Below are positions 18,905 to 25,782 of a DNA stretch of 64,000 bases, piece after piece. The DNA lies in contig JADBYA010000009.1 of NCBI GenBank assembly GCA_020403245.1, forward strand, positions 218,794 through 282,793, in the 5' to 3' direction. Position 1 is the first letter of the stretch; the number at the start of each line of letters is the position of its first letter. This stretch comes from Flavobacterium sp. (GTDB lineage Bacteria > Bacteroidota > Bacteroidia > Flavobacteriales > Flavobacteriaceae). The notes under the pieces were generated by a model that did not search any database, was not told the DNA's origin, and was given only the letters and a program-made list of their open reading frames with translations. The translations under genes and the position numbers were made by a program.

Positions 18905-20155
18905 TTAAATTCCAAAAGCTGCTTTTACTTTATCTACAAAATCTAATTTCTCCCAAGTAAATAATTCTACTGATACAGTTTTTGGCACACCATTTGGCAA
19001 TTGGAACGTTTTAGTAACGGTTTCCGGAGTTCTTCCCATATGGCCATAAGCAGCCGTTTCACTATAAATTGGATTTCTCAACTTCAAACGTTGCTCAATA
19101 AAGTACGGACGCATATCAAATACATTTTCTACCACTTTACTAATTTCTCCATCGGTCATATTCACTTTGGAAGTACCATAAGTAACCACATTGATAGAAG
19201 TTGGTTTAGCCACTCCAATCGCATAGGAAACCTGCACTAAAACTTCATCACACAATCCGGCAGCCACTAAGTTTTTTGCAATATGACGGGTAGCGTACGC
19301 CGCCGAACGATCTACTTTTGATGGATCTTTTCCAGAGAAAGCACCGCCACCATGAGCTCCTTTTCCACCATACGTATCCACAATGATTTTTCTTCCTGTC
19401 AAGCCAGTATCACCATGTGGTCCACCAATTACAAATTTTCCAGTTGGATTAATGTGATACGTAATATTATCATTAAAGAAATGAGCATATTGAGGGTATT
19501 TTGCCTTAATTCTTGGAATTAAAATAGACACTAAATCACTTTTAATTTTGGCCAACATTTCTGCTTCAGCGGCAAAATCATCGTGTTGTGTAGAAATTAC
19601 TATCGCATCTATACGTTGTGGTTTGTTATCGTCAGAATACTCTAAAGTTACTTGTGATTTTGCATCAGGGCGAAGGTATTTAATTTCGTTATTTTCTCTT
19701 CTTAAGTTGGCTAATTCAATTAATAAAGCATGTGCGATATCCAAAGCCAATGGCATGTAGTTTTCCGTTTCATTAGTAGCATAACCAAACATCATTCCTT
19801 GGTCGCCAGCACCTTGCTCTTCTTTACTAGCTCTATCTACACCTTGATTAATATCGGCTGATTGCTCATGAATAGCCGATAATACACCACAAGAATCAGC
19901 TTCAAACATGTATTCGCTTTTGGTATATCCAATTTTACGAATAACTTCTCTTGCAATAGATTGTACATCAAGATAGGTGCTTGACTTTACTTCACCAGCC
20001 AAAATAACTTGTCCGGTTGTAACTAGTGTTTCGCAAGCTACTTTTGACTCAGGGTCAAACGCCAAAAAATTGTCGATTAATGCATCTGAAATTTGATCAG
20101 CAACTTTGTCCGGATGTCCTTCACTCACTGACTCCGACGTAAATAAATAAGCCAT
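18905..20155 (-). CDS. metK: S-adenosylmethionine synthetase
   Basis: Makes SAM from methionine and ATP. The ORF track starts at 20191, but the family start is [21 protein letters not shown] at residue 13 of that ORF, so I place the start at 20155 (416 residues, normal for flavobacterial MetK). Motifs include [24 protein letters not shown] and [19 protein letters not shown] (the P-loop-like GGGAFSGKD). Together with metH and metF downstream on the other strand it covers the methionine/SAM cycle. A palindromic repeat (repeat D) lies 16 bp upstream of the chosen start and would be in the leader. Confidence 0.96.
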
Positions 20156-20170
20156 AATTTTTTTATTTTT

Positions 20171-20191
20171 ATGCTGAATATATTTCAGCAT
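20171..20191. repeat. Palindromic repeat D upstream of metK
   Basis: ATGCTGAA and TTCAGCAT flank a 5-base centre. The element lies in the 5' leader of metK and belongs to the same family as the copies at 20270 and 60249 and the nested copies in the SAM riboswitch. Confidence 0.7.
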
Positions 20192-20269
20192 CTGTTAAAA
20201 TTAATTGTATAGAAAAAAAATCGGATTGCTTTGAAAGCTAAAGAAGAAATTCTGCTTTAGCATTTTTTT

Positions 20270-20306
20270 ATTCTGAACTTGTTTAGAATCTCATAAAAGA
20301 TTCAAG
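20270..20306. repeat. Palindromic repeat D, two-hairpin form
   Basis: ATTCTGAACTTGTTTAGAAT (one C shorter than the perfect palindrome) is followed by a second small hairpin GAATCT...AGATTC. The same two-hairpin arrangement occurs at 60249-60281. Confidence 0.6.
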
Positions 20307-20500
20307 TTCGAATAGAGGTTGCAATCAGTACAAATTTTTCCTCTTAATTTCGAGTGCAAATGTATAAAATCAAATTGAATTGCAAATTATTATCTGTTTT
20401 TTTTATAATATTAGTCGAATGAAAAATTAAAATCAAAAAAAATCCTTGCAAATTCCAAATCTATATCATTACTTTGTAACGTTCATAAACTTATTGATTG

Positions 20501-20684
20501 TTATCACGAAAGCTGGAGGGAATAGACCCGATGAAAGCTTAGCAACCTCCACCTCCGTGGAAAGGTGCTACATTCTATCTTTATGCTGAACACTTGAACT
20601 GAACTTGTTTCAGTTTGTTTCAGTAGCTGTTAAATCAGAAATAGAGAACAGATAACCCGAGAATTCTCCTCCCTTTCACGATAA
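20501..20684 (+). promoter_or_regulatory. SAM-I (S-box) riboswitch upstream of metH
   Basis: The conserved core reads GCTGGAGGGAATAGACCCG, then GATGAAAGCTTAGCAACC, a short P3 (CCTCCAC...GTGGAAAGG), GGTGCTA and finally AGATAACC. P1 forms between TTATCACGAAAG (20501-20512) and CTTTCACGATAA (20673-20684), with a two-base mismatch. It should bind SAM and reduce metH expression when SAM is plentiful. P4 is abnormally long because it contains nested palindromic repeats (20583-20629). A possible terminator follows: CCAATA (20685-20690) can pair with TATTGG (20727-20732), with T-run 20739-20745 after it. Confidence 0.87.
20583..20629. repeat. Nested copies of palindromic repeat D inside riboswitch P4
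   Basis: An inner copy, CTGAACTTGTTTCAG, sits within the split arms of an outer copy (ATGCTGAACACTTG ... TTGTTTCAGTAGC). Together they extend the P4 hairpin of the SAM riboswitch. Confidence 0.65.
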
Positions 20685-20994
20685 CCAATAACATAATGTC
20701 AGACTCAGCTTGTCGAAGTCATGAGCTATTGGATTGCGTTTTTTTGTAATCCATACCTGCATGCCTGCCGGCAGCTACCTGCTGTACGTTGCAAGTCCCA
20801 AAAAAAAGGGAGCTTTCCACTTCCATCAGGGCTATAGAACAAACCATTTTTGTATAATTAAGTTTTCAAAAGAGCCATTTCTTAATGAACCTTAAATTTC
20901 TTAATGGTTTAAAAATAAGAGCTGGGGCTTTGCGTCTCTGCGAGAATTATAAAATAAAAGTCAACGTCCCAAAATTTCGGGATTTAGGTTAAAA
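20685..20994. repeat. Leader between riboswitch and metH, filled with dispersed repeats
   Basis: 310 bp. It contains repeat A (TGTCAGACTCAGCTTGTCGA at 20698-20717 and beyond), a T-run at 20739-20745, and repeat E segments (CATGCCTGCCGGCAGCTACC near 20770 and GCTTTCCACTTCCATCAGGG near 20812). A TTTGCGTCTCTGCGAG segment (20931-20946) is related to one before aroA. No ORF seen. Confidence 0.65.
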
Positions 20995-21999
20995 ATGAAA
21001 ATTATGCTACAAATTCAAGACGCCATAAAAGAAAGAATCCTTGTCCTCGACGGGGCCATGGGAACCATGTTACAACGCAATAACTTTTCCGAAGAAGATT
21101 TCCGCGGCGAACGATTCGCAACTTTTCCACATCCGTTAAAAGGAAACAACGATTTGCTTTCCATAACCCAACCCGAAGCTGTAAAAGAAGTACACCGACT
21201 GTATTTTGCAGCCGGTGCTGATATTGTTGAAACCAATACATTTTCAGGAACCACCATCGGAATGGCCGATTATCACCTGGAAGATTTGGTTTATGAATTA
21301 AATTTTGAATCAGCCAAAATTGCCCGCGAAGTGGCCAACGAATTTAAAGATAAACCCCGCTTTGTTGCAGGTTCTATTGGTCCAACAAACCGAACAGCAA
21401 GTATGTCTCCCGATGTTAACGATCCTGGATTTCGTGCCGTGACTTTTGACGATTTACGAATTGCCTACAAACAACAAGTAGAAGCTCTAATTGATGGAGG
21501 CGTTGACGTACTTTTAGTAGAAACAATTTTCGATACTTTAAATGCAAAAGCAGCATTATTTGCCATAGAAGAAGTAAAAGAAGAACGCAATCTCGATATT
21601 CCCGTTATGGTTTCGGGAACCATTACCGATGCTTCTGGAAGAACACTTTCAGGGCAAACAGTAGAAGCATTCCTAATTTCAATTGCCCACATCGATTTAC
21701 TAAGTATCGGATTTAACTGCGCACTAGGAGCTGACCAATTAAAACCGTATTTAAAACGTTTGGCCATGAACACCCAACTCAATATTTCCGCACACCCAAA
21801 CGCAGGTTTACCTAATGCTTTTGGGCAATACGACCAAACTCCAGAAGAAATGCAGGCGTTAATCAAAGAATATTTAGAAGATAATTTAGTGAATATTATT
21901 GGCGGTTGCTGTGGGACAACACCCGAACATATCAATGCAATTGCAGAAGTGGCTAAGAAGTTTAAACCAAGATCAATTAACAACCCTGTCAGAGTTTAA
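20995..21999 (+). CDS. Methionine synthase, homocysteine-binding half (split MetH)
   Basis: 334 residues, equal to the N-terminal Hcy (S-methyltransferase) module of cobalamin-dependent methionine synthase. It has [14 protein letters not shown] near 14-27, ETNTFSGTT near 78-86, FNCALG and the zinc-binding end [13 protein letters not shown] near 301-313. It binds and activates homocysteine on zinc for methylation by the cobalamin module encoded next. It is preceded by the SAM riboswitch. The last codons and stop lie in a 33-bp inverted repeat, so the split between halves falls on a palindrome. An internal M4 start is equally possible. Separate Hcy and folate/cobalamin ORFs are usual in flavobacteria. 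Confidence 0.9.
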
Positions 22000-22026: not shown

Positions 22027-24714
22027 ATGTCGTTAAATAAATACTTAAAATTATCCGGTCTCGAACCTTTAGTTGTAACTCCTGAAACTAATTTTATTAA
22101 CGTAGGCGAACGAACAAACGTTACAGGTTCACGAAAATTCCTTCGATTAATTAAAGAGGAGAAATACGACGAAGCACTTTCTGTAGCTCGTGATCAAGTA
22201 GAAGGTGGCGCACAAATCATCGATGTCAATATGGACGAAGGAATGTTGGATGGCGTTTTCGCCATGACCAAATTTTTAAACCTTATTGCAGCCGAACCCG
22301 ATATCGCTCGTGTTCCCGTAATGATTGATAGTTCCAAATGGGAAATCATTGAAGCGGGATTAAAAGTCATACAGGGAAAAGGTGTTGTAAATTCGATTTC
22401 CCTAAAAGAAGGCGAAGCGGCATTTATTCATCACGCTAAATTAATAAAAAGATATGGTGCAGCGGTAATCGTTATGGCTTTTGATGAAAATGGGCAAGCC
22501 GATACTTACGAACGCAGAATTGAAATCTGTAAAAGAAGCTATGATATTTTAGTAAATGAAGTACATTTTCCTGCCGAAGATATCATTTTTGATCCAAATA
22601 TTTTTCCGGTGGCAACCGGAATGGACGAACACAAATTAAATGCACTAGATTTTTTCCGAGCTACCAAATGGATTCGGGAAAATCTACCCTATGCTGGGAT
22701 TTCTGGGGGTGTGAGTAACGTTTCTTTTTCTTTTCGTGGAAACGATAAAGTACGTGAAGCCATGCATTCTGCTTTCTTATATCATGCTATTCAAAACGGG
22801 ATGACTATGGGTATCGTAAATCCAGAAATGTTGGAGATTTATGATGAAATTGATAAAACACTACTAGAACATGTTGAAGATGTTTTGCTCAACAGAAGAG
22901 AAGACGCAACCGAGAGATTATTAGGTTTAGCCGAAAGTTTTAAAGGGGAAAGTTCCCCTATCCTTAGCAGAAGTGCTGGGGGAGAGGCAGAATGGCGTAA
23001 TGGTTCGGTTCAAGATAGACTAACACATTCCTTAGTAAAAGGAATAGATGAATTTATAGAAATAGATGTAGAAGAAGCCAGATTAAATGCTGAAAAAGCC
23101 ATTGATGTTATCGAAATCAATTTGATGGCAGGAATGAATGTAGTGGGTGATTTATTTGGAAGTGGAAAAATGTTTTTGCCTCAAGTTGTAAAATCGGCGA
23201 GAGTAATGAAAAAAGCTGTGGCATATCTTCTTCCATTCATTGAACATGAAAAAGGAGACTCGACTTCGTCGAGTAATGGGAGGATCCTGATGGCCACGGT
23301 AAAAGGCGATGTACACGATATCGGTAAAAATATAGTAGCCGTAGTTTTGGGCTGTAATAATTTTGAAATTATTGATTTGGGTGTGATGGTACCACCCGAA
23401 AAAATCATACAAGCAGCTATAGAACATCATGTGGATATCATTGGATTAAGCGGATTGATAACACCTTCGCTTGACGAAATGGTGTATCTAGCCAAAGAAC
23501 TGAATAAACTAAACATCAAAATTCCAATTATGATTGGTGGTGCTACAACTTCTCGAGCTCATACTGCCGTTAAAATTGCGCCAGAATATCAAGCAACAGT
23601 GGTTCACGTAAACGATGCTTCACGGGCGGTTACTGTGGCTAGCAATTTACTTCAAACCGAAACTAAAGAAGAATATACTAAAACCGTTCGTGCCGAATAC
23701 GACAAGTTGCGTGAAGGGTATTTAAATAGAAGTCGGGATAAAGATTATCTATCTATTGAAGATGCTCGTAAAAACAAATTACAGTTGGATTGGAATAATT
23801 TTCAACCCGTGAAGCCAAATTTTATAGGCACCAAAACTGTTGCCGTTGAACTTTCCGAATTGGTTGATTTTATAGACTGGACACCCTTTTTTAATTCATG
23901 GGAATTGTACGGAAAATATCCCGCAATCTTAACGGATGAGGTTGTTGGCGAACAAGCCACTTCTTTATATGCTGATGCTCAAAAAATGTTAACACAAATC
24001 GTTTCCGAAAAGTGGTTGACTGCCAAAGGAATTCTCGGAATTTTCCCTGCTAATACATTAAATGACGATGACATAGCGGTTTGTCAGACTGAGCTTGTCG
24101 AAGTCCATTTCCTTACTTTACGTCAGCAATCCCAAAAAACGGCTGGCGCACCTAACATCGCTTTAGCTGATTTTATAGCCCCAAAAGATTCTGGTAAACA
24201 AGATTATATAGGTTGTTTTTGTGTAACCACTGGATTTGGAGTAGATGAAAAAGCTGCCGAATTTGAAAAACAGTTAGACGATTATAATTCGATTTTAGTA
24301 AAAGCTTTGGGCGACAGATTGGCCGAAGCTTTCGCGGAATATTTGCACCTGAAAGTCAGAACGGAAATTTGGGGTTATGCTTCAGAAGAAAGTTTATCTA
24401 ATCAAGATTTAATCGAAGAAGAATACAAAGGAATTCGTCCTGCCCCCGGTTATCCAGCATGTCCAGACCATCTAGAAAAACCTACGATTTGGAAATTGCT
24501 AAATGTAGAACAAGAAATCGGAGTACGATTAACCGAAAGTATGGCCATGTGGCCAGCGTCATCAGTGTCAGGATATTATTTTGCCCATCCTGATAGTAAG
24601 TATTTTGGACTCGGAAAAATAAAAGAAGACCAAGTAATAGATTACGCCAAACGAAGAGGAATTTCCACTGAAATGGCTGCCAAATGGCTTGCGCCGAATA
24701 TAAGCCCCACCTAA
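22027..24714 (+). CDS. metH: Methionine synthase, folate/cobalamin/activation part
   Basis: 895 residues. It has a pterin-binding domain ([13 protein letters not shown] near 26-38), a cobalamin cap region, a B12-binding domain with the cobalt-ligand His in [17 protein letters not shown], and a SAM-dependent reactivation domain ([16 protein letters not shown]). It transfers methyl from methyltetrahydrofolate through cobalamin to homocysteine held by the upstream protein. Three segments look repeat-derived and fall in linkers: [16 protein letters not shown] (about 308-323), GDSTSSSNG beside a CTCGAC/GTCGAG palindrome (about 411-419), and CQTELVEVH encoded by repeat A (about 686-694). The stop codon lies in a repeat B arm. 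Confidence 0.95.
22944..22988. repeat. Repeat-like in-frame segment in metH (first)
   Basis: AAGGGGAAAGTTCCCCTATC followed by TAGCAGAAGTGCTGGGGGAG resembles the C/G-run hairpins of repeat B. It encodes [16 protein letters not shown] in the MetH cap-region linker, which looks atypical for the family. Confidence 0.5.
23258..23274. repeat. In-frame palindrome in metH (second)
   Basis: ACTCGAC TTC GTCGAGT is a 7-bp perfect stem with a 3-base loop. It encodes part of GDSTSSSNG, in the linker just before the cobalamin-binding domain. Confidence 0.6.
24082..24107. repeat. In-frame copy of repeat A in metH (third)
   Basis: TGTCAGACTGAGCTTGTCGA(AGTCCA) differs by one base over its first 24 from the intergenic copy at 20698. 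It is read as CQTELVEV just before the activation-domain motif FLTLRQQS. Confidence 0.85.
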
Positions 24715-24825: not shown

Positions 24826-25782
24826 ATGAAAGTAACACAACATATAGAAAACGCCAACGGAAAACCATTGTTTTCTTTTGAAATCCTTCCGCCTTTGAAA
24901 GGACAAAATATTCAATCCATTTTTGATAGTATTGATCCATTGATAGAGTTTCAACCTCCGTTTATTGATGTGACCTACCATCGGGAAGAGTATGAATATA
25001 AGGAATTGCCCAGCGGTTTATTGGAAAAGAAAATTGTCAAAAAACGGCCCGGAACCGTTGGAATTTGTGCAGCAATTCAAAATAGATATGCTGTAGATGC
25101 TATTCCACATATTTTGTGCGGCGGGTTTTCAAAAGAAGACACGGAGAACTTATTGATTGATTTGGATTTTCTCGGAATTGAAAATGTAGTAGCACTTCGT
25201 GGCGATGCCCTGAAAACCGAAACCTATTTTCATCCAGAAAAGGATGGGAATGAGTATGCTACCGATTTGGTCCTGCAAATTAGTAATTTGAATAAGGGAA
25301 TATATTTAGACGAGGATTTACAAAACTCGGCGCAGACAAATTTTTGTATTGGAGTTGCTGGCTATCCCGAAAAGCATATGGAAGCGCCGAGTTTGGATAG
25401 CGACATACATTTCTTAAAACAAAAAATTAAAAACGGAGCCGATTATATTATTACGCAAATGTTTTTTGATAATAAAAAGTTTTTTGATTATGTAGAAAAA
25501 GTTCGTGCCGCCGGAATAACCATTCCTATTATTCCGGGTCTAAAACCAATTGCAACCAAGAAACAATTGAATTTAATTCCCCATCGATTTTCTTTAGAAT
25601 TGCCTGATGATTTGATTATGGCTGTAGTAAAAGCAAAAGATAACGACGCGGTAAAGCAAATCGGAATAGAATGGTGTACACAACAAAGTAAAGAATTAGT
25701 CGCTGCTGGAATTCCAGTTTTGCATTATTATTCTATGGGAAAAGCCGAGAATATTAAGGCGATAGCGAAAGAAGTTTTTTAA
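24826..25782 (+). CDS. metF: Methylenetetrahydrofolate reductase
   Basis: 318 residues, standard for bacterial MetF. MKVTQHIENANGKPLFSFEILPP carries the FAD-domain FEILPPL motif, followed by FIDVTYH, LRGD in VVALRGDA, and GADYIITQMFFDNKKFFDYV. It reduces methylenetetrahydrofolate to the methyl donor used by MetH. It is third in the methionine cluster and is probably cotranscribed with metH under the SAM riboswitch. The only DNA between metH and metF is a MITE-like repeat, whose right arm provides GGGGGAGG five to six bases before the ATG. This is an unusually Shine-Dalgarno-like site for this phylum. Confidence 0.96.
   Translation: MKVTQHIENANGKPLFSFEILPPLKGQNIQSIFDSIDPLIEFQPPFIDVTYHREEYEYKELPSGLLEKKIVKKRPGTVGICAAIQNRYAVDAIPHILCGGFSKEDTENLLIDLDFLGIENVVALRGDALKTETYFHPEKDGNEYATDLVLQISNLNKGIYLDEDLQNSAQTNFCIGVAGYPEKHMEAPSLDSDIHFLKQKIKNGADYIITQMFFDNKKFFDYVEKVRAAGITIPIIPGLKPIATKKQLNLIPHRFSLELPDDLIMAVVKAKDNDAVKQIGIEWCTQQSKELVAAGIPVLHYYSMGKAENIKAIAKEVF

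Follow-up and report, generated by a model that had tools for sequence, protein, structure and literature searches.

A nested palindromic repeat in the P4 arm of a SAM-I riboswitch upstream of metH in Flavobacterium

Can a structured regulatory RNA take in a repeat of its own genome and still keep its fold? The question is raised by an intergenic region in a 64,000-nucleotide stretch of Flavobacterium sp. DNA (contig JADBYA010000009.1, hereafter the window), part of a genome of 3.13 Mb. On one side lies metK, encoding methionine adenosyltransferase (18905-20155, minus strand; TIGR01034, 524.5 bits). Divergent from it are an N-terminal, homocysteine-binding part of metH (20995-21999), a C-terminal part of metH (22027-24714) and metF (24826-25782), all on the plus strand and recognized by NCBIfam metH and fadh2 profiles. 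Between metK and metH-metF lie a SAM-II riboswitch, a SAM-I riboswitch, a Flavo-1 element and several short palindrome copies. An earlier note on this DNA had proposed that the SAM-I aptamer has an intact core, that its P4 is stretched by one copy of a repeat, D, inside another, and that a second repeat, A, sits in the loop of a downstream terminator.

The SAM-I (S-box) aptamer extends over 20498-20658 (plus strand), as supported by RF00162, by a model that we built from 56 relatives with a plain P4 (R1), and by an unconstrained fold. The covariance search suggested in the earlier note gave 49.7 bits against a gathering cut-off of 44.4, with a single copy in this genome, upstream of the methionine genes metH-metF. 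Relatives usually score 70-80 bits with RF00162, and the lower score in the window is due to length, not to changes in the core. The Rfam local match covers 20501-20592 and stops inside repeat D, which gives a wrong 3′ end. By alignment with the 56 plain-P4 relatives we located the 3′ strand of P1 at 20651-20656 (GATAAC), opposite 20500-20505. The core columns are invariant across these 56 sequences and the window core matches them; P3 is short throughout the aligned relatives. R1 gives the window 84.2 bits; its match is cut off at 20605, probably by the length limit of cmsearch, which the insert would exceed. In the D-bearing relatives tested all 111 model positions are covered, at 84-112 bits. 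Folded without constraints, 20498-20658 adopts the canonical P1, P2 and P3 together with a P4 in the shape of a Y (z = -2.8). The claim of an intact core is supported. Read by eye, UAG in the P2 loop (20523-20525) and CUA in J3/4 (20568-20570) could pair in a putative pseudoknot. The aptamer shares with RF00162 the core, P1-P4 and the site before methionine genes, and differs from it in the Y-shaped P4 with its nested genomic repeat.

P4 spans 20578-20647 on the plus strand, with a base formed by 20578-20584 and 20641-20647. One arm of the predicted Y is the nested repeat D, and the other is the short helix CUG 20627-20629 / CAG 20636-20638. The outer D copy, TTTATGCTGAAC...TTGTTTCAGtagCT (20580-20628, plus strand), fits the genome consensus TTTATG-CTGAA..TTTCAG-NATCT and is split by an exact inner copy, CTGAACTTGTTTCAG (20599-20613, plus strand), so the description of P4 as stretched by D within D was correct. 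The distance from ATTCTA to AGATAAC is accordingly 72 nt in the window, compared with about 18-22 nt in most relatives. The relative loci L147, L211, L213, L214 and L215 are predicted to fold into this Y layout as well, with one D in place of two.

The insert in P4 is a member of a genome-wide family. From 64 non-riboswitch copies in this and related genomes we derived the consensus TTTATG-CTGAAYTNRTTTCAG-NATCT, in which the flanks TTTAT (before) and NATCT (after) lie outside the palindrome. The P4 copies have these flanks too. Lying outside the palindrome, the flanks give each D copy a direction and distinguish it from a chance hairpin. Copy numbers come from pattern searches, with reversed patterns as controls, and one palindrome can count on both strands. 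The genome has 12 exact copies of the core CTGAACTTGTTTCAG; allowing up to two mismatches raises the number of placements to 53 (14 for the reversed control), and a longer form of D gives 93 (12 in the control). Tens of copies per genome are found at the correct spacing and few in the reversed controls, and a pattern with one extra N returns almost no matches, which indicates that the spacing of D is fixed. The stretch between metK and metH contains two more D copies: the SAM-II riboswitch has one in its long loop, and the other is near the metK start. The latter, TTTATG CTGAATATATTTCAG CATCT, is at 20168-20193 (plus strand), between SAM-II and metK.

We considered whether nesting is unique to the riboswitch and rejected this idea. 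A "D inside D" pattern has 25 matches in 18 of 400 Flavobacterium genomes and none in the controls, although a few of the 25 are likely due to chance (e.g. L294, L295 and L301). Most of these matches lie outside riboswitches, and one genome (G126) carries a nested unit almost identical to that of the window at a different place. Nesting is therefore a property of repeat D and not of the window riboswitch, and what lies in the window P4 is a long form of D that recurs.

The relatives, found via their metH gene, are Flavobacterium species, and D recurs in P4 across the genus. A long-P4 pattern was matched in 150 of 400 Flavobacterium genomes, a few of the matches overrunning a plain P4 to a second GATAAC downstream. 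Of the 71 distinct long P4s among the matches listed, at least 34 contain the D core when one mismatch is allowed (0.02 on average after shuffling), and the copies with an NATCT tail are 22 in sense and 0 in antisense orientation. In 17 D-bearing P4s of equal length, pairing is kept in 93% of cells, with double changes at four pairs. The earlier note had named one P4 sequence shared by all related strains as grounds for doubt; the P4s are not identical, most being plain (18-22 nt), others holding a single D and one, in G183 (L170), a nested D with an intact aptamer core. Its suggestion that the repeats may be neutral, since P4 length varies, is probably right. A search for other repeat families among the plain P4 hairpins found little support in the loci examined.

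The metH tree has 120 rows, of which 28 were scored as D and 69 as plain P4. D versus plain requires 12 changes; the D group versus all other rows requires 13, at least nine of them forced by well-supported branches, and these counts are blind to gain versus loss. Horizontal exchange of the leader, or loss, may explain part of the pattern, since Y-shaped P4s with the CUG..CAG arm stand at distant positions of the tree (the window, L147, L149, L083 and L156). The clearest separate case is G183, whose leader is like that of a plain-P4 group while its P4 holds nested D; the plain P4s of its tree neighbours are unrelated in sequence. In three genomes (G179, G300 and G370) SAM-I riboswitches in a second gene setting also bear D. 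One large clade has nearly all of its P4s made of D, or of an apparently decayed D that still pairs. That a single repeat family is found in the same arm of SAM-I riboswitches in several lineages of Flavobacterium is new relative to the literature searched. That the distal P4 of SAM-I is a recurrent safe harbour for D genus-wide, with D acquired in a single orientation by several branches and turned into the P4 helix itself by one clade, is a tentative reading to which we give rather less than even weight.

No Y1_Tnp gene was found next to D copies. The only such (RAYT-like) gene of the genome (L173) is flanked by repeats of the CCCGTTAGGGAT type, a family other than D. Among 14 Y1 loci of relatives (L280-L293), 13 lack a D-like core and one (L286) has a weak match; the Y1_Tnp family is missing in 5 of the 12 relatives searched, and several D-bearing genomes are without it. 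Judged by these Y1_Tnp loci, mobilization of D by a RAYT was rejected; D presumably moves at the DNA level. Like REP elements (RepRanger counts for Flavobacterium, PMC12306157), D is a short imperfect palindrome in tens of copies that mostly keeps one core with variable flanking pairs; unlike them, it has no adjacent RAYT partner that we could find, and some of its copies lie inside an RNA aptamer.

Downstream of the aptamer, CTTTCACGATAAC (20673-20685, plus strand) is complementary to 20500-20512 and is a candidate alternative (anti-P1) strand. The predicted energy of the leader is -68.1 with the alternative helix and -60.5 with P1 forced, i.e. the alternative leads by 7.6 kcal/mol in the absence of ligand. 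Among metH-type leaders (n = 66), the best match averages 9.9 of 13 positions, and 7.4 after shuffling. As modelled, the switch probably works by this conserved alternative helix. SAM binding would stabilize P1 (20500-20505 with 20651-20656), and without SAM the 5′ strand of P1 would pair instead with the conserved downstream copy. The result would be an OFF switch for methionine synthase; both SAM binding and the direction of regulation are what we infer for the window riboswitch. Between the alternative strand and the metH start there are more than 300 nt. In a few relatives (e.g. L107, L109 and L114) GTTATCAG comes after a strand complementary to the 5′ side of P1 and immediately precedes the metH ATG; judged from sequence, the released strand could pair by the metH start there, which suggests translation control.

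A copy of repeat A, TCAGACTCAGCTTGTCGAAGTCATGA, lies at 20698-20724 (plus strand; core AGCTTGTCGAAG at 20707-20718), 3′ of the conserved alternative helix. The elements of the proposed terminator around it are present, namely CCAATA (20685-20690), TATTGG (20727-20732) and seven T (20739-20745), but the terminator itself is not supported. The T run begins 6 nt past the stem, where an intrinsic terminator has a GC-rich stem directly followed by its T run, and the fold places it in the loop of another hairpin, TTGGATTGCG...TGTAATCCA. On visual inspection, both CCAATA and the stem are missing from the relatives, and TATTGG aligns with their GAGCTAATGG. A consensus scan of the plus strand found no intrinsic terminator-like site there. 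The view that repeats sit in both parts of the riboswitch consequently stands for the ligand-binding part, where D is in P4, and is reduced, for the expression part, to a copy of repeat A past the alternative helix. Another copy of repeat A is in frame inside MetH (24082-24105, plus strand), where it encodes CQTELVEV, in a loop that varies in sequence among relatives; the operon thus seems to tolerate repeats in a protein loop as well.

The second riboswitch of the region, a SAM-II with a long loop before metK (20247-20349, minus strand; RF01726, 51.9 bits, cut-off 44), is also a single copy in the genome and is divergent from SAM-I, the two standing back to back 148 bp apart. The same divergent pair is found in ten relative loci at 116-236 bp, and in others at 1-2.6 kb. 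A survey in 2007 found no species with both SAM-I and SAM-II (PMC2258182), with which the arrangement in the window and several relatives contrasts. Scoring over the cut-off and lying before metK in a member of the Bacteroidetes, this SAM-II agrees with the long-loop SAM-II class described by Weinberg in 2010 (PMC2864571); it differs in that the long loop holds D in the window species and two relatives. The D-derived hairpin (20267-20310, minus strand) consists of CTGAACTTGTTTAG minus one letter and an inverted partner. It is also present in L147 (G327) and in L146/L067 (G363), and is absent from L149 and most others. Between SAM-I and metH is a Flavo-1 element (20771-20837, minus strand; RF01705, 49.9 bits); of 38 relative loci scanned, 13 have it at the same site and on the same strand. 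Its strand is opposite to metH, and its Rfam strand or role may need review.

How, then, is the nested D in P4 to be understood? We consider it likely that a working SAM-I riboswitch controls metH-metF, with the solvent-facing P4 a tolerated landing place for D and the insertion nearly neutral. As D is an inverted repeat, a copy that lands at the tip of a hairpin would lengthen it rather than break P4; with the hairpin longer and unbroken, the core, P1 and the expression platform would be kept, so that the insertion would cost little. Two findings weigh against parts of this interpretation: the uniform orientation of the P4 copies counts against neutrality with free orientation and independent gains, and the lack of a mobilizing enzyme for D among the Y1_Tnp loci counts against a mobile passenger. 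The uniform orientation would also follow if D had been inserted once, in the common ancestor of the genus, and often lost or overwritten since. Such a history is compatible with a neutral passenger, and the Y-shaped P4 common to distant positions lends it weight. We nevertheless think such an origin unlikely, though it is the strongest of the alternatives, as the flanks of D differ by group (ATCTTTATG, GTCATTATG, CTTTATG), G183 stands amid plain-P4 relatives of unrelated P4 sequence, and the SAM-I copies of the second gene setting appear to have acquired D separately.

Selection for D in P4 would explain the orientation as well, if the hairpin were now a working part of the RNA through folding speed, RNase protection or a protein that binds the sense hairpin. 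It would also suit the clade in which even decayed-looking D keeps its pairing, and the genomes whose SAM-I riboswitches bear D in two gene settings. Most relatives, including close ones with a plain P4 (L063, L157 and L167), do without D, and compensatory changes are expected too of a palindrome that is tolerated or re-inserted, so we regard selection as improbable. A harmful insertion, in which nested D slows or misfolds P1 and weakens metH control in the window species, is more doubtful still: the extra 50 nt postpone synthesis of the 3′ strand of P1, the ligand-free energy already favours the alternative helix and the Rfam score is depressed, but the score is lost through length, the free fold is right and G183 carries nested D with its core intact. 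As P4 has to be a hairpin and short stems may look alike, convergence outside the repeat family could be imagined. It is very improbable, given the exact or near-exact 15-nt core with the non-palindromic flanks TTTAT and NATCT, the shuffled yield of 0.02 of 71, and, for the long forms as distinct from very short ones such as L063, the directional flanks shared with the genomic copies.

The tolerance of P4 for D, our preferred reading, has precedents. Riboswitches accept "variable insertions" that fold as stem-loops (PMC2258182), and in Rickettsia the genes for tmRNA and RNase P RNA carry insertions of Rickettsia palindromic elements (RPE; Ogata 2002, with a review in PMC2229807). Like RPE, D is a palindromic repeat family within conserved structured RNAs and is probably neutral there; it is about 27 nt long, whereas RPE are 105-146 nt, and it occupies riboswitches, in the same arm on several branches. 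No report of palindromic repeat insertion in riboswitches was found in the literature searched. In practical terms, Rfam matches to SAM-I riboswitches with the longest P4s end at a wrong place (the window and L149) or miss the cut-off, as in the nested-D SAM-I of G183 when relative loci were scanned, and SAM-I riboswitches with long P4 inserts may escape annotation. Within one riboswitch class of one genus, Flavobacterium offers a natural series of plain P4, single D, nested D and apparently decayed D. This series makes neutrality, as against the incorporation of a selfish palindrome into a regulatory RNA, directly testable.
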